Positions 2,225 through 58,200 of a stretch of 64,000 bases of DNA are shown piece after piece. Position 1 is the first letter of the stretch. Each line of letters begins with the position of its first letter. The notes beneath the pieces are model-generated. The model worked only from the letters and a program-made list of their open reading frames with translations, had not been told where the DNA came from and did not search any database. The translations under genes and the position numbers were made by a program. Source of the DNA: Microthyrium microscopicum (lineage: Eukaryota; Ascomycota; Dothideomycetes; Microthyriales; Microthyriaceae); assembly GCA_010405405.1 (NCBI GenBank), contig MU004244.1:933895-997894 (forward strand), given 5' to 3'.

Positions 2225-5200
2225 ATGGGCTTGTGGGACTTTATCCGTCAAGATCCCGCCACATACGCCAAAAAGGCTTCTATCAAACGCTGGGTCAACA
2301 ACATTGAATTTCCTGAACATCACGACCTCGAAGAACTACCATTTACTGATCCGGAGTTTGACTACGAATTACCACGCGATCGTGATTCTGGTGACGAAGA
2401 CGAATTATTTCAACAACCGGACGAGAGTCAAATTGAACACTATAAAGCCCCAGGACCGGACCTAGCGGGTCAATTTCTTGACCCGCCTGAACCCACTCAC
2501 ACTGCCGAACCTGTTGTGCGATATACGCCAATGTCACAGCAAGGCGGTTTTGACTACGGCCAATTTCAGGTTTCCTATACTCAATGGGCAGATCCATTCA
2601 GTAGTGGCGGAGTTCGAGAGTCTGCACCATTGCAGGTGAAAACCTCACCATATGCAGCACTAGGAGCGTCAGGCGATGGAGGCGGGTATAGCAGAGTACT
2701 TCCACAATATAAAATCTCTGTCCCAGGTGTGTCGGGATATGAAGATAGTTCTGAAGAAGACGAGGATGATGACGAAGATGACGATGATGGTACAATACCC
2801 AGCTTACCCGCAGAAACTCAGGATCTAACTGTGTCTATAGAAACCGGTACGGGCGATGCCACAGCAAGTGGATCGGGGGTAAGCAGTACATCACTGTCGC
2901 ATAACTCGTCGCTAACAGGCCTAGGGTGTCCCTCCATTCGCTCTACAACCTCCTCCGGGCATGCAGTCACAGTGGTTAAACGCAACGCCAGGCTCACCTT
3001 TGTACGGGATTCCCGAGGCACCAGACGCCCCGCCCCAGGACGGATCTGTGTCTTCTCCCTCTTTGTCAGCGCATACGAAAGGCTCAAAGGCAAAGAAGAA
3101 GACCAAGAAGCAAGAACGAGAGGAGAAAAAGGCAAGAGAGCGCGAGGAGAAGGAGGAAAAGGCAAAGGAAAAGAAACCAAAGGGGAAAAGTAAACCGGGT
3201 CCACTTTCGCTTTTGATGCATCCTCCGACTCCTAAGAAGGGCTCGAAAAAGTCGAAGAAGGATAAGGGTGAAGATACACCGGTTGCTGAGACGCCTGAGC
3301 CGAAAACTCCCAAGGCTGGAATACTTAAAAAGGGGAAGAAGAATAAGGCTGAGAAGAAGGATTCGGTGGATGACGATATACCCCCTCCGCCACCTCCACC
3401 ACCGGCTCCTCCAGCGCCTGAAGTTCCAGAGGCTCCTGAAGTTCCCGAAGTTTCTGAAGCTCCAGAGGCACCCGAAGCTCCAGAATCTGCTGAGGCAGAT
3501 GTACCACCACCACCTCCTCCGCCCCCAGCAGATGAGCCAGTGGCGAAGGAGGCCGAACAAGAGGACGCACCCCCTCCACCACCTCCTCCACCTCCTGCCC
3601 CAGAGGACGAAGGAAGCGAAGAAACTGCTGAATCCGAAGCACCGACTGACGCAACATCACCTCCACCACCTCCACCACCTCCACCACCGGCACCCGCAGA
3701 TGAAACGCTAGCATTGGCAGAGGAAGCGGAACAAGATAGCGAGCCTCCACCGCCTCCACCTCCACCAGCAGCAGAAGACGCACTTGCTGAAGCGGGTGCT
3801 GACGATGAGGCTAGTGAGACAGTAGCCGAGACTGAATCAGAAGCGGCAAGCGATGAATCACCACCACCTCCGCCCCCTGCCCCTCCTGCCCCTGTGGAAG
3901 ATGAGGCTGAGGCTGAAGATGAGGTTGCAGAGGCTGAAAGTGAGGTTGATAGCGAGTCTCCACCGCCTCCCCCACCAGCAGAAGACGAAAGTGCTGAAGC
4001 TGCTGTTGACGATGAGGCTAGTGAATCAGTAGTCCAGGCCGAGTCTGAAGCAGCCAGTGATGAACCACCACCACCACCACCACCACCTCCTCCTCCTCCT
4101 CCGCCTCCAGCAGAAGACGACGCCGAGGATGAAGCCGCGGATGTTGAAAGCGAGGCTGTTGGTGAAGCTGAACCTTCACCGCCACCACCGCCGCCTGCTC
4201 CCGTGGAAGATGAGGCTGCAGATGAGGCCCCAAAAGATGAAAGCGAGATAGCTACGGAGGCACCACCTCCACCACCACCTCCGCCTGTAGAAGAGGTAGT
4301 TGAGGACGACGATGATCCGATTGTCGAAATTGTGGAAATGCCCAAGAAATCCAAAAAAGGAAAGAAGGGTAAAAAAGGCAAGAAGAGCAAGGCTGTAGAG
4401 GGGGCTGAAACAGAAGTCATAGAGCCACCTGCAGAACCAGAACCTAGTGAGCCGATTGTTGAGAATGCAGTCGAGGAACTAGAACCATCTCTCGTGGATG
4501 AGTTTGTTGCAGAAGAAGAGAAAAGCGAGGAAGCACCTGCCGAACCAGAAGTGAATGCTGAGCAAGCAACAGAACCTGAGGAGGCAGAAGATGCACTACC
4601 GCCTCCTCCATCACCACCTGTTGAAGAAGAAGCTGCCCCAGAGCCTGCAGCAGAAGACACGGCGCCAGAAGAAGCTGCTCCAGAGCCTGCCCCAGAGCCT
4701 GCAGCAGAAGACACAGCGCCAGAAGAGGACGCTCCAGCAGATGTAGAACCACCACCACCACCACCACCACCACCACCACCCGAGCCTCCCGCCGCCGAGG
4801 AAGAACCCATTGACGAACCCGAGCGACCTTCGACACCCGTCCAAGATGATGGCAACGACATGAGCCCACCCGCCTCACCATCCGCCACCAAATCCGTCTC
4901 ATTTGATCCTGCCGTTCTAGACCCGAAGGGCGGCAAACTCGGCAAAAAGGATAAGCGTAGCTACAAAAAGAAAGCTGCCGAAGAGGCTGCCAAAAAAGCC
5001 AAAGAAGACGCTAAGAAAGCTGCCAAAAGCGAAAAGACTGCCGACAAACTTGGTACACCGCGAAAGAATAAAAAGGGCCAAATTGAATTGGTTACTAGAG
5101 CGGGTAAAAAGAGCTCGAAGAAGGGGAAGAAAGGCTCGAAAGCGGTGGGTGAGCCTGAAGATGACGGTTCTCCTGAACCAACTCCTGCTGAGGAGGCGAG

Positions 5201-8200
5201 TGATCCGATGGATCAGGCATCTGAAGAGCCTGATGATGCCGCGGCTGAAGCAGAGGCTCTAGATGATCCAGTAGAAGAACCGACAGTAGAGAAAGAGGCA
5301 GCCGTGGTTGCTCCAGAAGAGCCGGCAGCAGAAGAGCCGGCAGTAGAGGACCCAGTAGCTGATCAGCCAGATACTGGCCCTGCTGTGGAAGAATCTACTG
5401 TGGACGAATCTACTGTGGACGAATCTACTGTGGACGAATCTGCTGTGGAAGAATCTGCTGTGGAAGAATCTGCTGTGGACGAATCTGCTGTGGAAGAACC
5501 TGCTCCTGAAGACTCTGCCCCTGAAGAACCTGCCCCTAAAGAACCTGCCCCTGAAGAACCTGCCCCTGAAGAACCTGCCCCTGAAGAACCTGCCCCTGAA
5601 GAACCTGCCACAGAGAGACTCGTGGTAGAAGAACTCGCAGCAGAAAAACCCGCAGCAGAAGAACCCACAGCAGAAGAGCCCGCAGCAGAAGAACCCGCAG
5701 CAGAAGAACCCGCAGCAAAAGAACCTGCTGTTGAAGCATTTGCAGCACCAGAGTCGGGTGAGAGCGCCGAAGCCGAGGATTCTGGCCTAGAACTACCACC
5801 CCCAACGCCCACCGAGTCAGAGGCACCACATGACGATGCTCCTGAAGACGTTCAAGACGCAGGCTCACCTCAACTTCCTCCACCTACACCGCCATCGCCT
5901 ATTGAAAGTGAGGCCGTAGCTCTGGACGCAGATGCAGTCTCAGAGAAGCTTTCAGAAACCGCGGACGCCCCAGTTCTGGAAGAGCAAGAAACTGACGAGC
6001 CGGCTGTAGAGGCCGAGACCATCAAAGAAGAGTCTACAGATGACGATCCACCACCACTTCCGGCCTCAGCTCCTGAGGCAGATTCAAGCAGTGATCCACC
6101 AGCAGAGCCAGAAACCGAAAAGGCAGAAGTCCAAGAGGCTCAAGCAGCAGCACCAGCAGAGCCAGAAACCGAAAAGGCAGAAGTCCAAGAGGCTCAAGCA
6201 GCAGAAGACTCGCCACCCCCTGCTGACGCCACTCCTGAATTGCCGCCAAGCCCAGTGGCTGAAGAAGTAACCGTTGAAGAGCCAGCGGAGCCGGAACCGC
6301 CTGAGATTAATGAAGAGGCTGAAGATAACCCTGCCTCCGAGGGCCAGAGCGCGGAGCCGGAAGCCGAGGCTCAATCGCAAACAGAAGTGGAAGATGCCCC
6401 TGTTGAAGCCCTTGCTGAAGACGGATCGGAAAAAGACGCAACCGATCAGGATAGCAACGACATCCCTGCGGGCGATACCGTCGAGCAAGATGAAGAAAAT
6501 GAAGAAGATCCTTGCCCTGTCGACGACAACCCACCTGCGGACGACCTGAGTAGAGCAATGGAAGAAGATCACGGCGAGACTGAAGCCGATGATGCGAAGG
6601 AATCGGAAGAACAACATGCTGATGAACCAGCCGGAGAAGAATCTGCCGCTCCAGCTGTGGGAGCTCCAGCAGAAGAAACTACTGCCACACAAGCTCTTGA
6701 TGAGGAAGAAATTGTCGACGTTGATGATACACCCAGCGCTGAAGCCGAAGATCATGCTGAGCCTGCTGAGCCTGTTGAGCCTGCTGAGTCATCGGAAATC
6801 GCAGAATCTGCTGAAGAAATTGCAGAGACCGATAATGCTGCCAGTTCCTCAAAGGAGGCAGAGCTAGCCTCGGCTATCCCAGAAGCTGACACTGAAGATG
6901 CCCCCCCTGAAGCTGAGCCATCTGAAGATTCAGCTGTAGCGGAGAGCGCTGAGGCTTCCAAAGACTTCGGTAGTGAAGGCGACAACGAAACTGTCAACGA
7001 CAAGGCTGAAGCTGATCTTGGCGATACTTTGGAAGAGGTCGAAGAGACCGAAGTCTCAACAGAAGCGCGTGATGCGGTCGAAGAGCCAGAAGCTGCTGAA
7101 GAAGTGGACGAGATACCTCCACCTCCACCACCCCCTCCACTTGCTAATGAGGAGCCGGAGCCAGCCCAAGAACCTGAACCGACCAAGGAAATAGCAGAGC
7201 CAGAGTTAGCGGCCGCTTCTGCAATTGATGCCGGTGAAGAAGAGCCGGAAGAGCCCATTCCTGAGCCAGAGCCCTTAGAGGAAACGGAGCCCGAGGAGGC
7301 CGCACCCAGTGAACCCGTTGTGATGCCTGGTGATGAGCCCACAAGTGAACCTCCAGCCGATACAGAGGATCCAACAGAACCGCCAACAGAAGAATCAGTG
7401 GCCGAAGCACCCGCTGAGGATGACCCTGTTGAGCCAACTGAGGCACCCGCTGATACACAAGAGGCTAGTGATGCTCTTCCAGAGGCCCCTGAACCCCCTC
7501 CAGCGCCTTCAGCGGATGATGCCGAGGTGGCTTCGGAAGCTGGGGACAATGGCGAAACTTTGGAAGAAGAAGGAGAAGAAGAAGAAGAAGGAATACCGCC
7601 TCCACCACCACCACCCGTAGAAGATAATGTGCCTAAAGAGGATGAAGATATCCCAGAACCAGCCACTGTGGACGAAGAAGTGCCAGCTGCGGATGGGGGT
7701 GATGTTGCTGAGCCAGCAGAGGCAGTTGCTGGTGAAGAGTCACCCGCAGAAGGAGTAACTGCGGATGAACCTTCACCAGACGAACCTGCCGTACAAAAGG
7801 ATGCTGATGTTGAACCTGAACCTGAACCTGAACCTGAAATCCAACCTGCCCCTGAACCTGAACCAGCCATGGAAACATCCGAACCAGCCATAGAACCCGC
7901 TCCGACCCCGCCGTCGGCTGAGGACGCGCCGCCTTCAGAAGAGAGAGCTATCAGTCCTCTATCAGCCGAAGATTCCCCTGAAGCCGAAAACGAAGTGACT
8001 CCTGAAGTGGCCACAGATGCGACCCCTGAAGCGATCCCTGAAGCAACTCCAGAAGCGACTCCAGAAGAAGCTGAGAAGGAGATGGCAGATGATGGGAATG
8101 CTGAGGATTTGCCTCCTCTAGCTGCTGGTGTAACACCAACAGCTGAGAAACCAGCACATCGCCGGCGTAGACACTCTCACCGTTCCGATCCGTCTAGTCC

Positions 8201-9746
8201 ACGGGAGAACCGCGATCGTCCTCGGCGCCGTGATACTCTTGTTGAGGCCCCTGATAAACGTCAAAGCACTGGTCTATTCGGCCTAGGCATCTTCGGAAGC
8301 TCCAACAGTCGGCCCAAGGAGAAAGAGAAGGCCCGTGAATTAAAAGCTCGTGAGACTACCAAAAGAAAAGAACCTTCGGCGTTACCAAGCAAAATACTAA
8401 CACCAGCTGAAGAGGAAGAACAACGTAAGAGGCGTGAGGCACGCAGAAAGGAAGAGCGCCGAAAGCGTGAAGGGGATAAACCAAAGAGTGAGTCTAGCAC
8501 CACCAAGCCTATTGAGGAAACGCCAGAAGCTCGTCCTAGCACGAAAGATGAGGCGAAGGAAAAGAAAAAAGCTGACGCTGAACGAACAGCGTATGAACGT
8601 GGAGAGGCTCGTCGCCTTGAAGTTGAGAAGGATGCGGAGCAGATCAAGAAACGTAGCCAGCGGGACGACAACGACAAGCCGACCGAGTCCGATTCTAAGC
8701 CATCAGAGAAAGACCTGTTAAGGAAAAAGCGCGCCGAACGAGAATCTGCACGACGAGCGGCTGAAGAAGAGGACCAGGAAGGTGTTCGCACCAAGTCTGA
8801 CAAACCAAAAGATTCCTCTCCAGCTCCCAAGCCACTCAAAGAAACAGGACGGCGCCATACTACACGAGATCTCAAGAATGATGGTCTTCCTCCCAAGAAG
8901 CCTGGACTTAGTAGGTCTGCGACTCTTGCTACACCCACCAAGTCCACTAGTCTACTCGGCAAATTATTTGGTCGCAATGACACTCCGCCCATGCCGGTCC
9001 GATCTTCTAGCCGAAGAGAAGTCCCTCGTGCCACAGAGAAAGCTGCAGTCAGATCGCCAAGCCAGGAAGCAGCTCGGCGTGAAAGGAAACGCGAGCGCGC
9101 ACTCAAGGATCTGGAGGCAGGCGAAGGATCGTCAGCCGAAAAGAAGTCATCCAAAAGTGGTTCTGAGGGCGACAAAGAATCCAGGAAAGCAACGCCAATC
9201 CCAGAATCGACCCTAAAGGAAGTGCCTGAAAAGACTGCAAAGACTGCAAAGGAATCTCCGACCGTCAAACCGAAAGATCGACCAACATCCCGCCGAATCG
9301 AAAGTGAACGTACTCACAGACGTAGCCCTCGAGTTGAGACTGAGCTGCCACGATCCAGTAGACGAGACCCCGCCAAGACTGATTCGCGACGAGAGCGAGA
9401 ACCTCCGCGTGATGAGCTCGATGATCGTCCCCTTCGACATCACCAGCACCGACAACATCGAGACCGTGAGCCCACAAAGGAGAAAACTAGAGAGCGAGAA
9501 AACCGCCGAGAAGGTAGCGGTGCAGAGAAAGATAGCAAAGGAAAGGAGAGAGACACCCCTCCTTCCAGCAAGCCAGTGACACCCCGTGCCTCCGAAAAGG
9601 AGCGCGAACGACGTCGTCGGGATAGAGATGACCCCGAGCGCGAACGCAGACGGGAGAGAGATTCTCGAACACCACGGGTTCGAGACAAGTCCCCAAAGAA
9701 GAGCGGAGGACTGTTTTCCTCATTCAAACGAACGATGACGAGCTGA
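2225..9746 (+). CDS. Giant acidic/proline-rich disordered protein, 2491 aa
   Basis: Two exons, 2225-2878 and 2925-9746. The 46-nt intron (2879-2924) has GTAAGC, a GCTAAC branch site and TAG, and it joins two frames that are otherwise offset. The ATG at 2225 follows a TTG in the same frame, with a stop at 2198. The N-terminal ~220 residues are acidic and aromatic, starting MGLWDFIRQDPATYAKKAS. Next come a Lys-rich segment, then about 1,800 residues alternating Glu/Ala/Pro-rich acidic tracts with polyproline runs of 5 to 15 residues, with local tandem repeats (TVDES, PAPEE, and a duplicated 54-bp unit near 6101-6204). The last ~600 residues are Arg/Lys/Ser-rich and contain two similar short motifs, GLFGLGIFGS and LLGKLFGRND, and a basic C-terminus GGLFSSFKRT. 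No enzymatic domain is visible. Scaffold or cytoskeletal binding is a guess from polyproline (profilin/SH3-type) tracts only. Confidence 0.8.
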
Positions 9747-13956: not shown

Positions 13957-16741
13957 ACCTAGGTGTAACATTTCAGGTGAAAACTTTTTGAAGTCCCAGA
14001 AACAGCCATGAGCTCCGCTGAAAGTGTGCTCACATCACCTGCGATATCTTTCAACGCACTCTATAAGTAAAGGATACTATGCTTTACATCGCATTCGATA
14101 TGTCATTGAGGAGTCTACGCTTGCAGTGAAGAATAGAGTACATGATAATATATCGTAGTAGATGGTAGACATCGCACTCGATGGGAGCGTGTTGACTTTT
14201 TGGTCGGTGGGATGGCAGGATTTATCATATAGGAATGATAGCATTGGACTCTGGTGGTCTGATATGCAATATGCTAGTCAGCATCTGACGAATCGTGAGC
14301 AGCACCACAAATATTTGGAATCCAAACTATACTTATATAGAAGTTCCAGCACTTATTTAATGCAGCGACTGATATAAAAGAAACATAAAGGGGTTGCGTG
14401 GTAGACAAAAGTTGCAGCGACGCATCTTAGTTCAGAGCCAGGTTCTGGTCTCCTTGGTATTTGAGCAAAGCTGGGACATGATTGTTAGCTAATTAATTTA
14501 ATAGCGAGTGCGATGGGAGACATCGCAGCAGATGGAATGATACCAGTGATTACGTTCACTGGCTAGGTTATGGCATACGGCTGTCGCCAGTGCAACCCAT
14601 AATTGCCAATAGGCTTGTTAGAAATCATAACATATGTCCTACCAGGCAAAACAATTGCCCGATATGTAGTTCACTACCCAAGAGCAAAGGAACTTGGGTT
14701 CAACAATCAATGAACTGTAGTTGGGCGCACGCCTACACACGCCATCGCTGCCCATGCGCGAGAGCCGGTCATCGAAATACACCACCAAACCAGGTACTCC
14801 GCATCTTTGAGGCTCGGCAAGACGCAAAACCAACAACCGCATCGTAACCCGATTCTGGATCGGGATGCTGTGTGAGCTGTCAACGCTGTCAAGGGATATC
14901 GTGCAGTTCCCAACCAGCAATATCCTGGGACCAAATGTCCGCATTTGCTCCACTGCGGATGAGATGGATGCGCCAACTTCCAATCTCAGCTGATAGCAAC
15001 TTAAAGGCCTTACAGTGGGATTTGAAATGTGCCGGTCTTTGATAAGAAGGAAATCAAAACAATCGAGCCCAACCATAGAAGGAGTGTCGTTGGGTTGAAC
15101 ACAGGGATGTTGATCAGTTCCAGACCCGGATTGGATATTAAGGGCTTGTTTGGGGAAGTACTGCCAGTTCCAGGTCCATTTAGGGATTAAAATTGCCATT
15201 ATTACTCAAGTCAGATGAACCAGAGATGAAAAACGCTCTGGTCGGATGTTGAGTAAGGGTCTTCCCCGGACATGGGGCATTTTGGGCATGGATGCCTTTT
15301 CAACCAATTTTTTGCCATGACGTAGACAGGTCAGAAGTCGAGTCTAAATCATGGAAGCCAACAAGTAGTGCCCGGTTACCGTCAAGTTTCTAAGATTTAG
15401 ATTAGCTTTGATTGTTCTAGTAGTAGCGGGCCGTCGCTTGGTGACAGGTGTTTTCGAGTTTCGAGGTCGGACTGTAGAAACTGCACGCGAACGGTAAGTC
15501 GAAGAAAAAGGGTCCAGCATTCAAGTTGTGCGTCTCGGGCTCCTGAGTCCTCAGCGGCGCTTGAGCCTGATATTGGGTAAAAACACGAGGCGTTTGACGA
15601 TTACCTTCAAATAAGGTAACAGATGGACAGTACGGAGTATTGCCATGGTGATTGACGAGTGAGGTGGTAGCAAATGTCAATCTTCAGAGAGTAAAAGGGA
15701 TATGATCACCGTGCTTCAGCTCTTGCACAGAGCAAGGGCTAAGTTGGGCAGCCTTGTCGGTGTGATAATTGACCCAATAATACCGAATATGGGAGTGAAC
15801 ATGACGACTTATGCAGGCCAGTAAGATGGAGTCGTTGGTCAAAGTGACTACCGGCTCGCGTGGTTGCTGCAGGCAGCTAACCGTGATGGGGGTTGAATAC
15901 GCAGCAGCCAAGCGGCAATTGATAATATGGAAGATAGTAGAGAGGTACATGATGGAATGCCCAAGAAGCATCCATCTCCTCGGGCTGCACTGAGTAGTAT
16001 ACATGTATGGCGATAATAGATTACGAGAGAATCTGGATATGGTAAGATGGGATGAATTTGTTAGGAAGGCACGATGACGAAGGCAGGTAAGAAGGATGGT
16101 CGTAACTTCCTCCAGATGATTGTGACTCCAACCACATCTCCAACAACATCTTCAACCTGATATTCCCATAATATATTACTTAGTACTTTACGCCCATAAA
16201 TCAATTTCTCCTTGTTACCTCACACTCCCACTCATCTGACCGTCGTAATAAAATAACGAGTCTCGGGCAATATTCTTGTGTTTAATTTCTTGCCTAGCGC
16301 AGGTGCGCAACCTCCAGGAATTTGCATCATCACTCTGAGCTTAACAGGCCAAACCTAGCCTCTTCCCGCCCGCTTCGTCACAACGCTCTCTGCGCTCTCT
16401 GCTCGTCCAAACATCTTTCTCACACCCTTGATAGCCCTGTGCGCTTTTGCTTTTGCTTCCAACTCCCAACAAGCCGTTCAACAGGGTCTTCCTTTCTTTG
16501 TTACTCTCCACTCTCTCCGCTATTCCTGGCCACACCACAGGTGGATCCCTTCCTGCTATTCCGCCGGCCATCATTACCAATTTTACATCCGCTCCCTCCT
16601 GAAACCTCCTCCTTCACCGGTAAGCAACAGTGCCTCATTCTCCCCAGTCTCTTCCCTCTCTTCTCTCGCCTGTTTTGCCCTGTTGTTGTGCCTCATTTGA
16701 GCCCTCAACTCCGCCTTCATGTAGCCCATAACCGGTCAAAC
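13957..16741. other. Gene-poor stretch, repeats then promoter/5'UTR
   Basis: 13957-14600 holds further CATCGCACTCGAT-type motifs (14083, 14169, 14509). 14600-15200 holds one doubtful minus-strand frame (entered separately). 15200-16300 shows nothing I can name. 16300-16741 is CT-rich leader of the next gene and may contain a 5'UTR intron from GTAAGCAAC at about 16620 to TGTAG at about 16723. Confidence 0.4.
14639..15199 (-). CDS. Doubtful hypothetical protein, 186 aa
   Basis: A 186-codon frame on the minus strand with ATG at 15199. No domain, signal peptide or membrane segment stands out, and nearby plus-strand frames compete. Length is the only argument for it. It may be a remnant or chance. 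Confidence 0.18.
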   Translation of the reverse strand: MAILIPKWTWNWQYFPKQALNIQSGSGTDQHPCVQPNDTPSMVGLDCFDFLLIKDRHISNPTVRPLSCYQLRLEVGASISSAVEQMRTFGPRILLVGNCTISLDSVDSSHSIPIQNRVTMRLLVLRLAEPQRCGVPGLVVYFDDRLSRMGSDGVCRRAPNYSSLIVEPKFLCSWVVNYISGNCFAW

Positions 16742-19700
16742 ATGTCAACCACAAGCTCTACAGCCGCCACAAGCGGCTCTGTTCCTACCCAAACATCCTC
16801 CATCGCTACTACTGCCACCGCTCTTACAAAGCCTACTGCTCTGTTGCCCTTGAACTCCACACTCCGTCGAGTTCAAACTCAACCAGCTTTTGGCTGTCTG
16901 GCCTGTGACACTGCAAGACGTGGCTCAGCTTCTATCAGCGCCAACATAAAGAACCTTCAAATTAACACAGACGATAAAATAGGTGCCATGGATCCGAGAT
17001 ATGGACGCCCGCTATCCCCAGGCGGACGACGTCTAGCAAATCCAGGCCGCCTATCCACGGGAATTCTCGAAGAATACAATGATGGCTACTACACTCGAAG
17101 TCCCCGAGAATATCTCCCTCCTCTCGATCCTCCTCGCCCCGCGTCTCGTCCTATCATCAAGTCTGAAGCATACTCAGGGCGTCCCCGTCGGTCCACACTA
17201 GATCGAGGCGCACCGATCGTTACTGCTGAGGTCAGCCCTACCAGATATGATCGAGACCGTGATGATCATAAACCCCGACGAGAACATCACAAAGTGTACA
17301 CCGTGAACGTTGACCAAGGAGGTGCGCAGCTGGTCGGTGAACGACAGATTGAACGAACCCGAGAAAGAAAATATCCTTCAAGCGGAACATACAATCGACC
17401 ACGAGAAATTGATGAAGATGGCTATTCATATACGGATGCCGCCGGAATGTTTCGTGAAACCGAACCACGTCATCGTCGACGGAGAGGAAGTGTGGATAGA
17501 GCAAGCGGAAACCGACGCTCTAGCACCTACGATAACTACGAAATGCCACCTCGCGCATCTACTCGAGATTTCAATGGCCCACCACCATCCCGGGCTCTGG
17601 ATAGACTAAACGAAAGTAAAATCAGCCGACATGGAAGTTTACAAGAGCGACCATCTCGGACTTCTTCAAGAGATAGAAACGGGACCTATGACAACTACCT
17701 AGCTGCTCCATTGGAGCTACCTTCTCACGATAAGCGTGGCCGCCCGCTTTCTATCGCCAATATACCCTATCATAATCAACATGGCTATGATGAATACGAA
17801 ACACGTCGAAGTGACGATGAGATTGAGCCACGGCGCAGCAGAGGACGATTCAAGGACAACGAAGTGGAGACTCGGGGCTTCGGCATCAGAAGTGCTAGCC
17901 TGGCTCCTCTTGAGCCAGAAGCAAAGCCACGTCTGGCCATTGAAGCAGCGCCACCACGCCGCCCAGTCTCTGCCATATACGCCAATGAGCCAGAGCTCAC
18001 GCTTCCTAATCATCGAGATTACATGCCACGGTCTTCTATTGAGGAGGAAGACCAAAGACGTGATCAAGAACGTCGGCAACAGATGGAGCTAGCCGAGCGT
18101 GACCGGGAAATAGCAAGGGCTCGTGAATTAGACCGGATGCGAGAGGCTGAACGGCTAAGAGAAACCGAACGGGTGCGAGAATCTGAGCGCATGCGAGAAG
18201 CTGAACGGATGCGGGAAGCTGATCGACTACGAGAGCATGAAAGAGCAAAGGAACGAGAACGCGAAACACGCCGAGAACGAGAACGTGAGCAAGAACGAGA
18301 TTACGGCAGACGCGAACACAAAGGACGAGACCATAATGACCGAGACGCTGATTACGACCGCAATTATGACCGCGAGACTTCACGACGAGACCAAGAATAT
18401 GAACATGATGATCACCATAGCCATCGACGACATGCTACTAATGCAGCTATTGCTACTGCCGGTGCCGGTGTAGCCGCTTACGCGGTTGCAAAGGGAGCCG
18501 AGAATCGAGAAAAGGACCGACGAGAAAGAGCGAACAGTGCTGCTTTGGAACCACCCCTTGCGCTTGAGCGTTCAAGAAGTGCACCTCTGGAACCACCATC
18601 TCAGCGCAGCCGAGAAGGAAGCAGAGTACAGGACGCAGCCATTCCTCGAGGCGGATCGCGAGATGTTTCAAGAAATCGTGATGCTCAACGAGAATTGCCA
18701 AGGGAACGAGAAGGCTCTTGGGAGGTTCCACGGGACCGAGATATTCCAAGGGAGCGAGAGCCAGCAAGACAGCAGGCTTTACCTGCTCCACCTAAAGAGC
18801 GAGATATGCCAGGTGCCTTCCCCAGAGACCCTGTTCCACCACGAGAGCTTGCACCATCGCGAGCGATGCCAAAGGAGATTGTGAAATCGAGAGAGCTGCC
18901 CAAGGAGCGCGAGTTCATCCGAGACGATCCCCGTGACATTCCCCGCGAGGCTCCTAGGGAGATGCGCCGAGATACTCAGGACGATTTTATGGCCCCAATA
19001 TCGCGCACTTCTACTCGCGATATGCCTCGGAACGCGGAGGTAGCCCCTAAAGACAGAGCTCCTCCTCGTGAGCGCGATTCACGCGATGCTCCCCGGGATT
19101 TGCCAAGAGATGCGCCTAGAGACATACCCAGAGACATGCCTAGAGACGTACCTAGAGACACACCCAGAGATGTTCCACGGGATGTTCGAGATGCCTCTAT
19201 TGCTACTGCCGGAGCCGGTATAGCCGCTTACGCAGCTGCAAAGGGCGACAAACCGCGGGAAACTCCACGAGAAATTACTCGGGAGACCCCAAGAGACATT
19301 CCACGAGACAATCAGAGAGACATCCAGAGAGATGCTCCACGAGATGTTCCCCGAGATATGGCTCGAGACAATAAGCGAGAAAGCCAACGGGAAGCTCCAC
19401 GAGACCGCGAAAGATCCATGACACGCGACACACCCCGAGAGCGAGAGCGATCTGTACCTCGAGATGCACCAAAAGATCGGGAGCGGGAAGCTGGCCGAGA
19501 CCGTGAACGTGAAGAGCGTGAACGGGAACGGGAGCGACCTCGACGCCGTGACTCATATGGTGCTGAAACAGACAACCGTCGCCCTCCTCGCCCAGAACCG
19601 AATGCACGGGAAGACGCTGCTGAGCGGGACTACGATGAACGAGACCGCGACCGTCGCCGGCGTGATACCGAGGAGTCTACCGGAGAGCGTCGCCGTGATC

Positions 19701-20478
19701 GACGAGACTCTTCTGGAGATAACGATGGTGCCGAAGAGGACTACCGTCGTCGTCTCCTACTTGCGCAGCAGGAACTCTCTCGTCCATCCCCTCCTGCAAC
19801 TCAACCAACCGCTGAAGAAAAATCACTTGGCGCTCCTCGCAATATGCTTGGCAGTACACTTGTCAACGAGCCTCAGACTGTTGAAGGTGCTGAATCTCGA
19901 CGAGACTCCCGAGTTCGCATCGTGGAGCCGCCTCGCAAGGAGCCATCACCGCCACTCGTCAAAGGAATTCTTCGGAAACCAACACAAAAGTTTCCCGAGC
20001 ATCCAAACTTTGTACGCGAAGGCGCCCTCCCACTCAAGGAAGACATCGAAAAGAAGGGCATTCCAGCCGGCGCCCGCTGGACAAAGATTGACCGCCGCCT
20101 CGTGAACCCCGAAGCACTCATTGCATCGAAAGAGCGGTTCGAAGAACGTCTCGACTGTGTGATTGTACTGCGCGTCCTTACGAAGGAGGAGATTCAGAAG
20201 CTAGCAGACAAGACTGCAGAAATCCGAGGTGAGTTACCATAACGCTGATTTTCTGATGGCGTCGCTAATGATGTGTGGCTGCAGCGGAACGGGACGATAG
20301 GCATGAGAAGCGCAAGAGTTCAAAGTATGACGATGATGACCGTAGACGACGCCATGATGATGATAAAGAAGAGACAGAAGATGAGCGCGAGAGTAGGCGA
20401 CGGAGAGATAAAGAGAAGGAGCGAGATGGAGGGCGCGACCGTGAGCGCGAGAGCCATCGTGAGAGGGGAGATCGGTGA
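16742..20478 (+). CDS. DUF8035-like Arg/Glu/Asp-rich protein, 1226 aa
   Basis: Exons 16742-20228 and 20285-20478; the 56-nt intron (GTGAGT...GCTGCAG) splits an Ala codon. The start at 16742 is the first ATG after a CT-rich leader. A later in-frame ATG at 16988 (MDPRYGRPLSPGGRR) is an alternative. The protein is mostly charged and disordered: a Ser/Thr-rich head, RE/RD-rich coiled-coil-like repeats (RxRExERxRE), then about 30 copies of a PRDxPRD-type motif. Two hydrophobic segments, IATAGAGVAAYAVAKG and IATAGAGIAAYAAAKG, interrupt it near residues 576 and 820. The compact C-terminal module containing GARWTKIDRRLVNPEAL and DCVIVLRVLTKEEIQ matches my recollection of the fungal DUF8035 domain. 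The final exon is a basic D/R/E-rich tail. Function is unknown in the family. Confidence 0.75.
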
Positions 20479-48042: not shown

Positions 48043-48716
48043 TTTCTTGTGGAGTTGTATGTTGTCAAAACTCTGAAAAACTTCGCCAGTAGAAGCCAAC
48101 GAAAAGCAAAATGATCAGTATGCGAAAAGTCCCAGGATCGGCGAACTATTAATACATGGTTTGAACTTGAGCAAGACCAGATTGAAGGGTCAACAATCCT
48201 TTAAGCCCATGGTCCTCACGAATGAGCAAAAGATGCTCAGTGACTAACTGTGGTTTGCATTAGGCTGAGTTGATAACAGGCTAAGACGCGCGAAGGATTT
48301 AATTGCCTCTCGCTTTTACAATTACACGAAGTTTACTCGTCAGGATAGAACTTCAGCCAGATACGGCAGTATTCTCTTCATTCATAAGATACCATTTAAG
48401 ATTTGAAGTAGAGCAAGACTAATCAAGCGGTTGACAGAATAAATGTTGCGTTCCCGTCAAGTATGTTGTCGAATCCATGCTATGCTTTAGGACTGCGTGT
48501 TTTATTGCCCCTTGAGTTCGTACAAAAGTTAGTTGTCTCTCAAATGCGTTCGAAATGAAAACTTCTACTGGCTATAAAGTCTGATGGGAGACACCATCGT
48601 TGATGGGAGCGCACCATTTGATTTGTCAACCGTGGACTGATGAGCTCAAATGCGCTGGTTTTCAACTTGGCTTGCACTGTGCAGGGCATTTGCTGTGTAA
48701 TTAACCCCTATGCAGA
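48043..48716. other. Upstream region with MITE end near 48592-48640
   Basis: GATGGGAGCGCACCATTTGA and the following TTTGTCAACCG are the inverse of the fold-back family arm. The rest shows no gene. Composition is normal until 48716, then drops abruptly. Confidence 0.45.
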
Positions 48717-48814
48717 ATTTGTTGGGTATAGAATTATTTTCATCTTATATATGGGCCTTTTTAAAGGACTATCCCTAACTACCTATATCGTAATTTAAGA
48801 TTAAGATAGTAAAT
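48717..48814 (+). repeat. Left inverted end of the RIP element
   Basis: Matches the complement of 58201-58296 through GGGCCTTTTTAAAGGACTAT and, further in, GATTAAGATAGTAAAT. Weaker similarity continues about 25 bp inward. Confidence 0.85.
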
Positions 48815-51800
48815 TTAAGATTACTTACTATTTATTATAAAGTTTGTATATAAACCTACCTTATTATAATCTACTTATAAATCTATATCTTTTTATTTAG
48901 GAAATATACTATCTAAGCTTGTTACTACTATAAAGTGTACCTAGTCTTTTATCTTTTAATAAATATAATAAGAACCTACTAAAAATCCTTAAAGCCTAAA
49001 TAATAAAGCTAAAAAAAAGTATAATATTTATATAGACTAGGGTAATAATACCTTAGTACCTAATACTAACTAACTAAAACGTAGAGCTAAGCTTAATTAA
49101 TATATATTCCCTACTCTTCTTATCTATTTCTATTTAAGTTTAATAGGGGTCCTTTATTTATTTTTATAGTATTATAGCTAACGGTTAACTATATAAGTAT
49201 AAGTAAGATTAATAAAAGGAAGTTAAGCGTAAAGAATATAAGGCCTAGTTTAAATTAGCTCTAAAAGCTAAAAAAATAGTACTACTTAAGTTAAAAGCTA
49301 AATCTACGCTAAAGGCTTTACTAATAAAGAATAAGGTAAAATTTTTAGTAAAGTCTATTATATAGGAAGATTCTAAAGATAAGAAAAAGATTATTTAGTA
49401 GTAGAAATATAGCTACTTAATAATAATAATAATAAATAAATAGAATATAGTAAAATTAGCTTATATTAAAACTAAATGTATAGTATTTAATACTAGCTAT
49501 ATAAATAGTTAGTAAGAGTTTAATAAAAATACTAAAAAAGAGCTTAGGAATAAAGAGGGTAAAGAGAATAAAGAGAATAGTAAAGATAAATTAGGTAGTA
49601 GAGTTAAAAGTTTAATAGATAAAGAACCTATAGATTTTAATAACTTGCTAAAATTTATAGAGAAAGAGCTAGATAATTTAGTAAAGTTCTTTAAAGAGAA
49701 GAAGAAAGCTAATCTTAAAGAGCTATAGAAGACGTTTATTAAGGGCTAGAAGAAGTATAATAAGACTAATAGATCTATATTAGACTTAGACCCTATTAAT
49801 CTTAATACTAGTGACGTACTCTTAGCTCTAGTTAATTATATTATTAACTTTTATATAAAGTTCTATAAGATTAAGCCTAGTTCTAATATAGGAGGTTTAT
49901 TAATATATAAGAATACTATTAATAGTATTATATAGTAAAATTTTAGTATTATAGTAATTAAGAAGTAGTATATCTTTATAAAAAAGTATACTATAGAGTA
50001 AAAATATAATACTAAGACTATAACTATTTATTAAAGATCTAACTATCCTAAAGTTACTAGTATAATAAAAGACTCTATAATACTTAGCTTTAATGCTAAT
50101 ATCTTTAAGCTATAAATCTAAGTATTAGATTAATATTATTATATAAATTAGTTAAAAAAAAGTATATATTCTATTATTATTAAGCTATAGCTAGTAATTT
50201 AACTAAAGTTACTTACTAAAGTAGTTTCTACTATAAATATTAGAAGTAATACTTACTTCTTATTATAATAATAGAATAGGCTTACTAATAAATATCTACT
50301 AAATAGTAAAAATAACGCTAAGAAGAAAGATAATCTTATTACTATCTTAATATATAACGCTTATACTTAAGAACGTTATCCTAACTTTTGCTACTACTAC
50401 TTTAAGAATTCTAATAAGTAGTATTTTATTATAAATAGTCCTTAGCTTTAAATATAGAGAAATAATATTAATAGTAGTAATGCCTCTACTAAGAATCTAC
50501 CTATAAAGGTTCTTAAGTATTTTTAGAATATTTAGCTTATAATTAGTAGTCCTTTTATAATTATAAATACTTATAGTACTAGAAAGCTATAAAGCAAAAT
50601 ATCTATATTAAGTACTTACTAGTAAGAACTAGAGAATATTATAGAGTAAATAAGACTAAAGACTATTAAATATAAGAGAAAAGCTACGCGTAAGAAAACT
50701 AAGGCTAATAAGAAGCGTTATAATTATTAGTAAAAGATTAATTATTTAGAGCTAGACGTAAAGAAGAAGTAAATTAAACGTAAAAATAAAAAAGCTAATA
50801 GGTAGGCTATATAAGATAAACGTAAGTCTAATAAATATAAGGCATAAAAGAGATATTATAATAGGCGTTATAATTAAGAATAAGATAATAGAGAAGTAGC
50901 TTTAGCTCTTTAGTAACTACCTATTTAATTATTATTAGTAAGCTACTTTTAGTTTATATATCCTCTTAATATTCTTTATTATAAATCTTTATAAATATAT
51001 ACTCCTTTATAGTAGGCTTATTAATAATTTATATATCTTTAAGCTTCTTCTCTTTTATTAAATTATCCTTAGTTTTAACTTCCTTAGGATTATTATAATT
51101 ACTTATTATTAATAGTTCTATAAGTCTTACTATAGGCTTTATTTTTATTTGTTTAAAATAACTTAGAAATATATATTAACGTAGTATCTTATACTATAAT
51201 ATTAAATTCTTCTTCTGTCTTAGTTTCTAAACCTTATTAAAAATGTCTACTATAGCTATAAATTTAAACTACTTTATTAGAATATAGTTTTAAAAATACT
51301 ATAAAAAGGTAACGTAAGGCTTTAGTAGTTACTCTAATAAAAGCTATTACTTTAAAATGCTAAACTGCTTCTCTATAAAAATAACTACCTATTACTAATA
51401 AGGGCCTAATTATTAAAATTAAATTAAGTCTTATTATAATATCTTTTATATCTCTATATACTAAACTATACGCATTATCTTTAGTACTAAAAATAATTAA
51501 TACTATATAATTATTCTTTTTCTATATTACTTAGTTTAAGCCTATTAGTAATAATAAAGATTAAGAGGTGATTTAAGGAGTAGTAGACTAGTATAATATA
51601 GATATCCTTACTCTAGAGGTAAAAAGTACTTAAAATAGCAATCTTGTTTACTATATATTAGTAAAGGTAAAAGTTTAGAAATTAATAATAGTATAGATCC
51701 TTAGCGTTATTAAGCGTTTTAAGGACTAGGTTATTAAGAAATAGCTTACTAATTAGGAAGTTAGCGTACCTAATAATAAAGAAGATAATCTTATTTTTAG

Positions 51801-54800
51801 GAAGTATTACTTAGTAGGTTAATAAGTTCTAGGTAAGTAGTAGGCGTAGTGGTTAATAATAGAGTTAGGGGGTATCTTTTTACTAACTTAAGCTTGTTCT
51901 TATTAATTTATAAGCGGTTAATTTACTAAAATCCTACTAAAGTTATGTCTATTATTATATATTTTTCTATCTTTTACTTTGCTTCTACTATTTTATATTT
52001 ATAATATATCTTATAATTATTTCTTTTATTACTTATTAAAAATAATACTTTTAACTAACGTAGAAAAGATTTAGAAAATTAAATTATTTATTATAGTGTT
52101 AGTAGTTTAGTATTAGTTATAATTAAAAACTACTCCTAAATATCTTATTTATAACTATAAATTTAAGTAAATAATAATTTTAGAAATAATTAACTACTAA
52201 TATCTAGTCTGTTTCTATTACTACTGTTCTCTATTCTAAAACTATCTATAAAAAACTATTTTTATAAAGTAGAAATATTAAATAATACTATAATTTTATT
52301 ACTATCTTTTAATAATTAAAACTACTAGTAAGAAGTTATTTATATAAAGTAAGAAGGTTAAATAATATTAGATTCCTATATCTAAGCCTCTAAAACGCTT
52401 AGTTATATTATAAAAGTTAATAAAGGTTATAAAGAGTTATAAAAAAAAAAAGTAAAGCGTAGATGTTATACTAAAGTAAGAGGTAGAAGGACTTAAGGAT
52501 TAGTATTAGTATTATAGAGAAAGTAGGTTATAAGTTAACTATAAAGAATATAATTAGAGTATAATTCTCTTTAATAGTTAGGATAGCTTATATATTTATA
52601 TAAATCTAGCTAGTTATAATTATAAGTATAAGTTATTAAATAAAGTTAAGTATTACTTATAGGAAGATAATCTAAGTACTAAGTACTATAATAATATAGT
52701 TAAGTAATATAATAAAGAAAAAGTACTATAGTAAAGAATTCTTATATATTTAAAGAAGTAAAGGAGTTTTAGTTAAGTAATATCTCTTTAGAAAATTAGG
52801 CGCTATAGGTAATTACTATCTTATATATAGCGTATCTAGTATTAATTAGTAGTAAGTCTTAAACCTATATATTAATTAGAAAGTAGTCTATACTAGTAAT
52901 AATTTATAAATTCTATCTATAACTTAGTAATATATAAAGATAATAAAAATATTAACTTATATTAGAATTTATTACGATTTAATAAAGTAAGTAATAAATA
53001 ATAGGATTAGAAGGGTTAATTATTATAATATATAAGCTATTAGGCTTATAGTAATAAAATCCTATAGTATTACTAATAACGTTACTAAGATATAAAATAA
53101 AAGGGCGAATATTAGTTAAGCTATTATTAGTATTAGGGATATTACTATAGCTTTTAAAGCTAAAGATTATATTAAGAACTAACTAGTAGTATTAAGCTTA
53201 GAAACTTAAAAAACTATACTAAGGGTTAAGAACTTGTAGATTAACTATAATAAGATAATTTAAGATTATAAAGAGTAAATAGAGTAAATAAAGTAAGTAT
53301 TAAAATAGTTAATAATATAGAAGGGTATAGAAGTAAAATATAAAGTATTATAGAAAAGTTCTTAATAAATATTATATATAAAGTAGTTTATAAAAGTAAT
53401 AGAGAAAACTAAGAATAAATAAGACTTTATAGGCGTTAGAATATATAAATACTATTACCTATTACATTTTAAAAAGTTATAATAAGAATATAATAAAAAG
53501 AACTTACTAATAAAGAGTTACTATTACTTATAATTAGACGTAGGCTAAAATATTAAACTCTCTATACTAGTACCTTTAGTATAACCTAATGCCTAATTAT
53601 AATAATAAGGCCTATAAGATTAAGATAACTATAATAGTTAGAATAGTAATAAGGAAGATATTATAGATTATAATAAATAGATAAAATAGAGCTACTATTA
53701 TAGCTAATAATATAAAGATCTAAAGATATAATCTTATACTATATTATAACTATAATAGAAAAGAATTAATATTATATTTAGATACGCTAATAAGAGTAAT
53801 TAGTAAGTAATAGTAACTATCTATAGTAATAGACTAGTAGAGATTAACCTATTAGGTTAATTATAATAGGTAGGTAGTAATATACTTAAGATTTATATAC
53901 TAGTATGTATAATATTAGCTAGAAGGTAGTATTTAGTATAGTCTCTTAGATTTTATAGTTTTATAGTAAAATTACGAAGTCTTATAATATTAAGGGAGTA
54001 AATAGTAAAATAATATAGCCTAATTTTTTAGTAGGTTTAATACTAAGCTACTATTTATCTAATATTTTATATTATTTAATAAAATAAAGATAGGGTTGTT
54101 TAGAATATTTATATAAACTATAGATAGTAAATATAAATAAAATATATATTATAGTTAATATATAGTAAAGCTAAATAGAAATATATAAAAAACTAATATA
54201 TTAATTATAACTAAAGAGTAATATACTACTTCTAGATTTTAGTAAGGGCTAAATATCTTCTTTAAAAATACTTATAATATATATTATTTAGATTAATATA
54301 GCATATTAATATCTTTAACTACTAAGGCTATAACTTTATAAAGATATATTTATAAATAGCTAATAATTATCTCTTATTATCTATACTATAATTATCTATA
54401 TATCTTATTATTACCTAAAGCTTTATAACTATTAAACTTTATCTCTAAATATAATCTTATTACTAGCTATTCTTAATATACTATACTTACCTTATACTTA
54501 TAATTATATAGTAACTTTATCTCTTAGTATAGTATATCCTATTAATTTAATATATATAATAATATTATACGCTATAAGTAGCTAGTAGTTCTCTCCTTAG
54601 TATTTATATTCTTAGTAATATTATCTTATATTACTAATAAATTATATTATTAATATTAAGGCTAGTATAGATAATAGCTTTATATAATACTATTAGTAAT
54701 TCTTAACTTCTCTTCCTTAATACCTAAATACTATATAACTTTAGCTATAGTAAATTAGGTATTTACTATTCTCTTCTTTAATACTAAGTAGTATACTCTT

Positions 54801-55049
54801 ACTATTTATCTTCCTATTAGTAAGTTCTTTACTCTAGTCTTAATATTAAGATTATATAAATCTATTCTTAGATATTAGTACTTTATTACTACTAATAAAT
54901 TACTTATTAGTATATAGTATAGATATAGAGGCTAGTTATAATAAATATATCCTAATCTAGTATTACTTAGTATAAAAGGAATATAAAATCTATTCTTTAC
55001 TTACTATTCTTTAGTACTTCTCTATCTTCCTTATTTAATACTTATCTTT

Positions 55050-55221
55050 TGTGACGCCGCAGGGCGATCCCTACCTAAACGGCTCAACTAATGCAAAAAG
55101 TACCGTAGTGTCCAAGCTCGGACACTCCGTGGGATCGCACGTACATATTCTGCACGTCTTGGGAGCCGTTACGGGCTCCCACGGCCAGCATCTCGCTGCC
55201 GTACGGAACGCTCCCGTGACA
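55050..55221 (+). repeat. TRIM 5' LTR, 172 bp
   Basis: Contains four inverted-repeat stems: 55064-55071 with 55131-55138 (GCGATCCC), enclosing 55108-55113 with 55120-55125 (GTGTCC); then 55161-55167 with 55174-55180 (GGGAGCC); then 55181-55185 with 55198-55202 (ACGGC). Confidence 0.88.
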
Positions 55222-55373
55222 TACGCTCCTCTCTTCAACAAGCCTGTCCTCAGGCGATTATATGTACGCAACTTCCAGCAACGGGCTCTCTGTCCTTTGA
55301 CGACGTCATCGTGTTCGTCACGTGACGCGAGCACTAAGCAAATCGTTATGCTTTGTAGGCTGTCCAGTTCTGT

Positions 55374-55440
55374 TGCCTCTGCACGAATCGAACCCGCGAC
55401 CTGCGGGATTCACAGACGACAGGGGTAGTACTGGTTGAGC
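55374..55440 (-). other. tRNA-like segment inside the TRIM
   Basis: On the minus strand it reads AGCTCAACCAGTA (A-box-like, near 55428-55440) and GGTCGCGGGTTCGATTC with a perfect B-box core GGTTCGATTC (55385-55394), then GTGCAGAGGCA. A T-arm can be drawn with one mismatch, but the acceptor stem cannot close, so it is not a functional tRNA gene. Probably tRNA-derived. Confidence 0.55.
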
Positions 55441-55450
55441 TTGGACACTT

Positions 55451-55622
55451 TGTGACGCCGCAGGGCGATCCCTACCTAAACGGCTCAACTAATGCAAAAA
55501 GTACCGTAGTGTCCAAGCTCGGACACTCCGTGGGATCGCACGTACATATTCTGCACGTCTTGGGAGCCGTTACGGGCTCCCACGGCCAGCATCTCGCTGC
55601 CGTACGGAACGCTCCCGTGACA
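55451..55622 (+). repeat. TRIM 3' LTR, 172 bp
   Basis: Identical to the 5' LTR by eye over the full length, including all hairpin arms. It is followed at once by TCTTT and AT-rich host-element sequence. Confidence 0.88.
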
Positions 55623-55855
55623 TCTTTACTAATATATTACTTTATTACTTAAGTTAACGCTAGTTTACTATTCCTATTCTATTATTTTTTTATTTAGAAT
55701 AACTTATTCTTTAGTATCTATACTATTAATAAGTCTCTTCTTATAATATTATATTACTAGCTTTAGTAATCTACTATAATTTAATAATAACTAGGATCTA
55801 AATAGGATTTTAACTCTCTTAGTAGTCTACCTCTATATTATATCTATAAACTATA

Positions 55856-56221
55856 AGTTAAGCTACTCTCTAGTATATATTCTCTTAATCTCTCTAGTTT
55901 ATTTAGGTTAAGTTACCTTTTAGTATATATTTTCTTAATTTCTCTAGTTTATTTAGGTTAAGCTGCCCTCTAGTATATATTCTCTTAATAATATTATTAA
56001 GAGAGTTAGGACTCTATACTTTATAGCTTATTAGATTAACTCTAATTTAGTTTTAAGACTTAGAGCTATAGGACTTTATTCCTTATAAGGTGCTATCTTT
56101 ATATTATTTTTATAAATTATAGGTTAAGTTGCTATTTAGTGTATATTCTCTTAATTTCTTTAGTTTATTTAGGTTAAGTCATTATCTAATATATATTTCC
56201 TTTATCTCTTTAGTTTATTTA
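55856..56221 (+). repeat. 50-bp minisatellite in RIP DNA, five copies
   Basis: Copies begin GGTTAAG at about 55906, 55956, 56122 and 56172, with a first copy starting near 55856. The shared body is AGTATATATTCTCTTAATTT then CTCTAGTTTATTTA. The period is 50 bp in each adjacent pair. A perfect 24-bp palindrome (TCTCTTAATAAT and its inverse) sits at 55981-56004 where the array is interrupted. Confidence 0.7.
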
Positions 56222-58200
56222 TTAGAACTTTACTAATTCGCTTTTCTAAAAGAATATTATAAGAGGTTAGGCTCTGCTAGCTCGCTATTCTAAAAAGAAT
56301 ATTAAAAGAGCTAGGACTTTACTACTACTAGATTACTACTATTTAAAAGTAGTAATAAGATTTTTAAAACTCTTTCCTTACTAGTACGCGCCTTTACTAT
56401 ATTAAAAAATACTATCTTCTATATAAGACTCTAACTTCTATACCTTTGCTTTTATATCTCCTATATATTACTAAAGTATATAAGAGTAAAGGCTTTAGCT
56501 TATTAGCCTTATATTTAAGATGATAAGGAGTTCTATTAAGACTCTAGTATAGTAGTTAACTTCTTTTATCTAAATAGACTAAGAAACTATATAAGAAATA
56601 CTAGTTAGTAGTCCTTATTTATACTTACTATATATAGAAGTAGATAAAGACTACTTATTAGCGTAGAATAGCTAATAAGAATAAGGATAGAGAGATAAAG
56701 AATAGTAAAATATTATTTAATAGTTAGTTTATAAGATATAAAATAAACTAAACTACTATATAATATTAATATCTTATAATTATAATATATAAATTACTTA
56801 GTAGTATCTATATTACTCTAAATATTCTCTTTATAACGTAATAACTAATTATTTTATTAATAAAGCTTTACTATACTTTATATCTTATATTTCTAAAGAA
56901 ACTTATAATATATATATATATCTATTCCTTTATAATATAAACTCTTAGTAATATACCTAAACTATCTAACTATAAAGTAATTATAGCTACTAACTATAAC
57001 TATATACTCTAAAAAAGATATAAAGTTCTTAAAATTTTATTATTTATATACCTAATTCCTTTTTATCTAGGCTTTAAGAATATTAAACGTTAACTCTATT
57101 AAATTAAAATTAGAAGAGTAGGATAATAAATAGTGAATAATAAAGCCTATACCCTTTAATAGCTATTCTATACCTAAATTAGTATAAACTAAGATATTAT
57201 TAAGTACTATAATAGGTATATAATCTCTAAACTAATATTATAATATTAGTATTAGTTATATTGTAATTTAATAATAGAAATCTTTTATATTATAGTACTC
57301 TTCTTAAAATCTAGTATAAGGAAGATATCTATTAAGTATTATAATAGCTAGAATTATATATATCTTTCTATAGTTTATATTTTATATTTATTATAAGAGT
57401 TAACCTATAGGCGTATATATATGTAATCTTTAGCTATTTTACTCTTTAAAGATAAACTTATTTAGAAAGACTAAATCTTAAGCTTTAAACTATAATAAAT
57501 CCTAGTAGTATATAATATAAAGCTCTTTACTCCTATTTAGTAATAATTATATAATAGCTTTTATATTCTACTCTCTTTTCTTAAGTATTCTAAATATTAT
57601 AGACTTATTTACTAATATACTACGCTCTTATTCTAGCTAGTGAACTATTTTAGCCTATAATTACTAGCTATATAATAAAAGATATTATAATAAGGTATCC
57701 TTATTTACTAGTTTAAGTTATAAAAGCGTTTTATATAGTAGTATCTATAGTTTTTATATAGACTTATATTTTCTTATATTATATTTTTAGTACCTAATTA
57801 TTTATATTAAATAGTATATCTTCTTAATAATTCTTACTTTAGTCTAGTTATATTTAAGATATATAATAGCATAGATATAATAAGTTATATTAATATATAT
57901 TCTGCTTAGTTAATATGCCTAAGTTTATATCTAGCGCGTAGCTATAATATAAGGATCTATAATAGTATTAGTTTTAATAGTTAAAATTAGGATAGAAGGA
58001 GTAGTTATTATAATAAGCACTATATATAGAGGTAAATTAGGCTAAGAATCTAAGGCAATAAAATAATAGTTTAGTATATTTGCTTAGTAACTAGTAAGGA
58101 AAGCTATAGTTTTTAAGCTCTTAATAATATAATATACTATAAGGAATATAGCGCTTATACTTTTAATATATATAATATAGTAGATAGCAAGTAGTAGTTA

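Follow-up and report, generated by a model that had tools for sequence, protein, structure and literature searches.

The 64,000-nucleotide stretch of Microthyrium microscopicum DNA analysed here (the window; contig MU004244.1, positions 933,895 to 997,894 of the forward strand, assembly GCA_010405405.1) carries a 573-bp terminal-repeat retrotransposon in miniature (TRIM), which lies in host DNA degraded by repeat-induced point mutation (RIP). We consider it probable that this is a complete, late-arriving TRIM that primes its own reverse transcription, takes its proteins from a self-primed Ty3/gypsy element, and is un-RIPed through its late arrival. A narrower claim, which we favour only slightly, is that it is the first TRIM with self-primed reverse transcription of the Tf1 type, in which the RNA would be its own primer, a partner would be needed for the proteins only, and a captured fragment of a tRNA or of the head of a short interspersed nuclear element (SINE) would lie just downstream of the primer site.

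The two long terminal repeats (LTRs) of the element are identical at 172 of 172 positions (TGTGAC...GTGACA on the plus strand), and the window contains a 175-bp exact direct repeat bounded by the duplicated target, a combination that is not due to chance. An earlier reading of the window, made from the sequence only, had described a pair of identical TG...CA repeats of 172 bp around a 229-bp interior, with TCTTT duplicated at the flanks, and its coordinates proved right to the base. New beyond that description are the minus orientation, the self-complementary primer site and purine tract, another copy, and a tRNA-like segment in the interior. In the minus reading, a single A separates the 5' LTR from AGTGTCCAAGCTC (the full post-LTR sequence being AAGTGTCCAAGCTC), the interior ends with GAAGAGAGGAG-CGTA before the 3' LTR, and the LTR contains the hairpin AGTGTCC...GGACACT. 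The plus-strand reading was rejected: no complement of at least 6 nt occurs between the 20 nt after the corresponding LTR and the LTR itself, and the purine tract is missing before the other LTR. Judged by these landmarks, the orientation of the element is the minus strand. When GTG and TTG starts are allowed, the longest open reading frame (ORF) measures 125 aa and is antisense to the element.

The assembly to which the window belongs (36.9 Mb in 20 contigs, with the window on contig C15) was searched by a method that passes over very common words and scores just the top candidates. The whole element returned three places, namely the window, C11:952368-952919 (79%), and about 95 nt on C5; queries with just the LTR, just the interior or the C11 copy found no places beyond those three on the assembly, and an exact 25-nt pattern had 0 matches in IMG/VR. 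At C11:952363-952924 lies a full-length copy of 562 bp with a 5-bp duplication of its own, CTACC, on both sides; it and the window copy are the only two full copies that these searches found in the assembly. The sequence-only reading had suggested a search for further copies with 5-bp duplications, and the C11 copy, with its independent duplication, is one. Compared with the window copy, the two C11 LTRs have a 2-nt deletion in common, and a further 8-nt stretch is missing from the C11 interior; the two insertions therefore probably derive from different source copies, neither of which was found in the assembly.

Sites without the element tell the same story of insertion. A 301-bp query across the empty site on C5 was matched over 301 of 301 positions on C5, C10 (92%), C14 (91%) and C6 (90%), and the window copy of this surrounding repeat is interrupted exactly at the duplicated 5-6 bases. 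The junction letters, read on C5 only, are AGTAAAGATAAG, with the target present once. Nine places were scored for this query: the four empty sites, the two halves of the interrupted site in the window, a piece on C5 that follows a gap, and two unused partial matches on C3 and C1 (73-75%). The earlier description as a complete miniature LTR retrotransposon is borne out by the second full copy with CTACC and the four empty sites, and the element is, as read from these copies and sites, a real, complete mobile element.

The third place is different in kind. On C5, at about 1813.63 kb, an LTR end of about 93-95 nt plus flank stands directly after a 10-N gap; this fragment equals the window over 434 nt, and the 1,595 nt compared contain 91 differences, every one of them beyond those 434. 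Ahead of the gap, C5 carries the empty site together with the same 312 bp of flank, which show 21 differences from the window sequence, and the gap is bordered by overlapping versions of one repeat, one without and one with the TRIM piece. A chimeric contig end or scaffold misjoin is the probable explanation of the fragment, not a third insertion. Its resemblance to a chimeric contig end also lends some colour to the idea that the TRIM itself is an assembly artefact, arising from a duplicated repeat or a misjoin. This we regard as highly improbable: the window contains no N, the second full copy on C11 has a different target-site duplication (TSD), and four paralogous sites are uninterrupted, the last two points being assembly evidence against the duplication error that the sequence-only reading had itself named as a danger.

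The evidence on priming begins one base after the 5' LTR, where 13 nt form a perfect complement of nucleotides 103-115 of the element's own LTR. A 13-nt complement within the first 15 nt occurred in 0 of 20,000 Markov-shuffled pairs (1 of 20,000 when the window was 20 nt), and none was present among interior windows avoiding the primer site. The predicted fold of 55410-55520 (minus) closes on the helix between the primer and the primer-binding site (PBS) at -39.6 kcal/mol (z -2.86), with 2 of 200 shuffles as stable. When the same test was applied to two autonomous-type Ty3/gypsy elements of this genome, on C2 and C6, self-complements of 10 nt (6/20,000) and 9 nt (62/20,000), respectively, were obtained, each beginning at the third nucleotide after the LTR. 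From primer start to LTR end there are 70 nt in the TRIM, 64 nt in the C2 element and 64 nt in the C6 element.

This layout is that of Tf1/sushi self-primed reverse transcription, and by analogy the TRIM is most probably self-primed. RNA polymerase II would start transcription near LTR nucleotide 103, and the 5'-terminal 13 nt of the RNA would pair back with the post-LTR site, acting as primer in place of a tRNA. Gag, reverse transcriptase and integrase would be borrowed from a self-primed Ty3/gypsy element, whose integrase would generate the 5-bp duplication. In common with the Tf1/sushi system, the site lies directly after the 5' LTR and is complementary to the LTR, at what would be the RNA 5' end; different here are the lack of genes and the length of the complement, 13 nt against 11 in Tf1. 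The TRIM is not itself a member of the Tf1/sushi lineage, as no ORF is long enough for reverse transcriptase and integrase.

Priming by a host tRNA, as in an ordinary TRIM, would make the 13-nt complement a by-product of the LTR hairpin or of the element's origin. Primer sites of the tRNA-Leu kind are found in the TRIMs of ants and cestodes (PMC3532108, PMC4558846), and the LTR hairpin overlaps the complementary stretch here. We nevertheless hold this explanation to be unlikely. Over 20 ordinary host tRNA loci, an incomplete set with introns still in place, no complement to the first 20 nt past the 5' LTR exceeds 6 nt (7 nt in the opposite reading of the element), and the best is likewise at most 6 nt in another set of 24 distinct sequences (16 ordinary tRNAs and 8 SINE heads); moreover, the self-complement sits exactly at the position required of a primer site, and the layout recurs in the gypsy elements on C2 and C6. 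A 10-nt match of the plus-reading post-LTR stretch to a tRNA locus was discarded, being same-sense and hence of no use for primer pairing.

The class of partner can be illustrated from the same genome. The C2 element (C2:1270097-1277757) is full length and Tf2-like, with identical 222-bp LTRs and the TSD TAGTA; its frames measure 754 aa, with no Pfam match, and 1,443 aa, and this longer one has matches above cut-off to RT, RNase H, integrase zinc finger and SH3_Tf2-1 and below cut-offs to protease, rve and chromodomain. Its LTR has 38 further scored matches of 77-89% identity (40 scored of 60 candidates). The C6 element (C6:2133902-2141488) has identical 162-bp LTRs and the TSD AGACT, and its pol is broken by one in-frame stop. 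Six of the 98 RVT_1 matches listed (110 candidates) are without a stop: the four examined represent three gypsy-type frames, the third at C2:945221, and the telomerase gene, and the other two lie at C3:897883 and C11:949125. All 13 Copia reverse transcriptase matches listed carry stops. What the TRIM has in common with the two gypsy elements is confined to the TGT...ACA ends, the 5-bp TSDs, a purine tract and the layout of the self-primer; from these features we infer the class of the partner, a self-primed Ty3/gypsy element, and not its identity.

Several points weigh against self-priming with a gypsy partner. No meaningful LTR similarity was found between the TRIM and the two gypsy elements, and the full-length partner sharing LTR ends, which the sequence-only reading had suggested looking for, was not found in the assembly by whole-element, LTR, interior or C11-copy searches. 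A RIP-tolerant pattern of the LTR/PBS junction occurred at 61 places with at most two mismatches, against 23 for a reversed control; the inexact places were treated as AT-rich noise, and exact matches were confined to the two TRIM copies. Self-complementarity was computed for two of the three un-RIPed gypsy frames. Owing to the LTR hairpin, there is also a same-sense likeness between the primer site and the LTR, at 11 of 13 positions. As the tRNA set was partial and its introns were unspliced, priming by a spliced anticodon, as in fungal Helenus, is still conceivable, and since there are only two full copies, one of them RIPed, the complement is beyond a covariation test. Self-priming is predicted here from DNA sequence.

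The interior segment with tRNA likeness bears on a further explanation. Compared with the heads of SINE-like repeats, the segment reaches a local score of 23, a value attained by 0 of 300 random interiors; against other tRNAs its score is 16, attained by 18 of 300. The best score of the LTR against 30 tRNA loci is 16, a figure given without an LTR null run. A tRNA gene in the interior was rejected, as neither ARAGORN nor Rfam called one in the element and the likeness is partial only; the segment is taken as a captured fragment. If the element were instead a TRIM of the Helenus type, driven by an RNA polymerase III promoter of tRNA origin, this would account for the tRNA-like 3' half with its box B and for the 5-bp TSDs, which fungal Helenus also makes (PMC10886601). 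However, the tRNA-like part sits in the interior here, and no tRNA was called; in addition, fungal Helenus is described in the available part of that work as linked to Copia, mostly with anticodon-loop primers (PMC10886601), whereas the listed Copia reverse transcriptases of this genome all carry stops. Such an origin therefore seems quite improbable to us.

The same genome contains a dispersed repeat of about 1.2 kb that starts exactly with a 94-nt tRNA-Glu-like gene and has an A/T-rich (AAT-like) tail. The copies at loci L064, L065 and L066 are the least mutated, and those at L072, L073, L074, L077, L078, L080 and L082 are RIPed; long target duplications were seen by eye in three copies, one of them being AAATGTGCATGAA, which borders the L065 copy at either end. 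This repeat looks like an unusually long tRNA-headed SINE.

The RIP state of the element differs sharply from that of its surroundings. The element has a GC content of 0.564 and a (CA+TG)/(AC+GT) ratio of 0.85, whereas sixteen 500-bp bins around it (49001-55000 and 56001-58000) have GC contents of 0.16-0.25 and ratios of 0.00-0.15, and the edge bins of the RIP-dead block (about 48.7 to 58.2 kb) are intermediate. The absence of CpA loss in fully mutated surroundings, noted earlier, is thereby confirmed. The C11 copy presents the opposite state: 450 of 561 aligned positions are identical to the window copy (about 79-80%), and the 111 differences comprise 98 C>T or G>A changes in C11, 2 in reverse and 11 transversions. 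Counted over both strands, the C's changed in the C11 copy are 46/73 in CpA, 41/108 in CpG and 11/135 in other contexts, and the 170 positions of its LTR pair include 26 differences, each of them C/T or G/A. Hence this TRIM family can evidently be RIPed, directly or via leakage from RIPed neighbours.

Both 7.6-kb gypsy elements on C2 and C6 are un-RIPed as well, with ratios of 1.19 (measured on 7,258 of 7,661 bp) and 0.96 (5,898 of 7,587 bp) in flanks of GC 0.19-0.23 and ratios of 0.02-0.06. These elements are as un-RIPed as the TRIM, so length does not decide this state here, and late arrival suffices for all three. Insertion of the TRIM after its surroundings were RIPed, one of the options in the earlier reading, is thus supported by the dinucleotide composition. 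The same reading had called the element recent, and the RIP state agrees; the LTRs add little, because 0 differences in 172 positions bound divergence only at 1.7% (95%), and the word therefore rests on RIP state and not on a clock. Its proposal that the element escaped RIP through small size fared worse and is in our view improbable. RIP is stated to have a floor of about 400 bp and 80% identity (PMC4522978), and the LTRs measure only 172 bp; yet the whole element, at 573 bp, exceeds this minimum, RIP changes have hit the interior of the C11 copy as well as its two LTRs (even if they might have leaked in from RIPed neighbours), and the un-RIPed 7.6-kb elements in dead flanks make size evasion unnecessary. 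Besides arriving late, the TRIM may not have been counted as a duplicate: escape as effectively single copy is possible because its only full relative is just 79-80% identical.

TRIMs have been described in plants, ants, cestodes, bivalves and some fungi, and the element shares with them a short TG...CA LTR pair, a non-coding interior, a purine tract and a size of about 0.5 kb, and with plant TRIMs the 5-bp TSD. Among the features tested for membership, the following were found: near-identical short LTRs, no coding capacity within a total below about 1 kb, a TSD of constant length at independent insertions (TCTTT, CTACC; four uninterrupted sites), and a purine tract and PBS, the latter of the self-complementary type, in the interior. 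The element differs from them in that its putative primer site complements its own LTR, with at most 6 nt of complement to the tRNA loci compared, in that only two full copies were found, and in the tRNA-like fragment inside. A tRNA-complementary PBS is a usual feature of TRIMs, not a defining one; in bivalve TRIMs the usual PBS is missing and tRNA similarity occurs in the inner domain, according to the available text (PMC6934838). With Helenus/TRIMp3, as far as its description is accessible (PMC10886601), the element shares the tRNA-like sequence in a TRIM and the 5-bp TSD in fungi; it differs in the interior position of that sequence, with no tRNA called and none of the tRNA-derived sequence in LTRs by which Helenus is recognised, and in its self-complementary primer site. 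The GalEa Copia elements of fungi that carry a Conserved Hairpin Site are likewise without a tRNA-type PBS and have TGT...CA LTRs and 5-bp TSDs. The 9-bp palindrome CHSeq1 that marks them, in most cases CTGATCAGT or CTAATTAGT, does not occur here, where AAGTGTCCAAGCTC follows the LTR, and their authors found no LTR complement, whereas the TRIM has one (PMC5445492).

In ascomycetes, nine TRIMs linked to Copia or Gypsy families were reported in Cochliobolus heterostrophus (PMC4112212), others in Venturia (PMC4646964), and TRIMs were searched for in Pseudocercospora (PMC13041039), all as given in the passages available. No priming analysis was seen in those passages for the Cochliobolus and Venturia TRIMs, to which the present element is akin as an ascomycete TRIM. 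Among the matches listed from the open-licence PubMed Central literature, no self-primed TRIM was found, which is weak evidence of absence, and the only TRIM work discussing self-priming concerned bivalves (PMC6934838, in part). TRIMs in ascomycetes having been reported already, what would be new is self-priming in a TRIM, which the element most probably uses.

The features of the element are collected in Table 1.

Table 1. Features of the TRIM and its surroundings, in window coordinates.
Feature	Position	Strand	Basis or remark
Target-site duplication TCTTT, left copy	55045..55049	no strand	single copy (AAAGA, other strand) at C5 empty site
3' LTR in the element's own orientation	55050..55221	minus	identical to 55451-55622
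Interior, 229 bp, apparently non-coding	55222..55450	minus	longest ATG ORF touching the element, 35 aa
Purine tract GAAGAGAGGAG, 4 nt before 3' LTR	55226..55236	minus	sequence
tRNA-like 3' half with box-B-like GGTTCGATTC	55385..55424	minus	closest to tRNA head of 1.2-kb SINE-like repeat, same genome
Putative primer-binding site AGTGTCCAAGCTC, 1 nt after 5' LTR	55437..55449	minus	13/13 complementary to 55508-55520
5' LTR in the element's own orientation	55451..55622	minus	identical to 55050-55221
Putative self-primer GAGCTTGGACACT, LTR nt 103-115, presumed start of R	55508..55520	minus	pairs with PBS in predicted fold
Weak TATA-like AATATGTA, ~30 nt before presumed RNA start	55543..55550	minus	possible TATA, suggestive only
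Target-site duplication TCTTT, right copy	55623..55627	no strand	sequence
RIP-dead AT-rich host DNA around the element	~48700..58200 (edges approximate)	no strand	dinucleotide table; paralogues on C5, C10, C14, C6

Elsewhere in the window, a 50-bp tandem repeat adjoins the TRIM inside the RIP-dead block (55857-55989 and 56120-56221). An ORF of 2,261 aa (2961-9746, plus strand) has a strong A-over-T skew of 0.28-0.40 per kb bin, no Pfam match, and many short tandem repeats, for example GAAGAACCTGCCCCT. Another ORF, of 1,306 aa (16322-20242, plus strand), has internal tandem repeats of 12-36 bp and no Pfam match.

For RIP, the case illustrates that an intact small element within RIP-dead DNA need not imply size evasion, and the pair of un-RIPed and RIPed copies, together with the empty sites and the un-RIPed gypsy elements, gives relative dates for the last RIP at these loci. 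As TRIMs retain almost nothing of their partners, the latter are hard to name; here the self-complementary primer site points to the partner class, a Tf1/sushi-type gypsy element. If that site works in this way, the TRIM would be a minimal natural substrate for self-priming.
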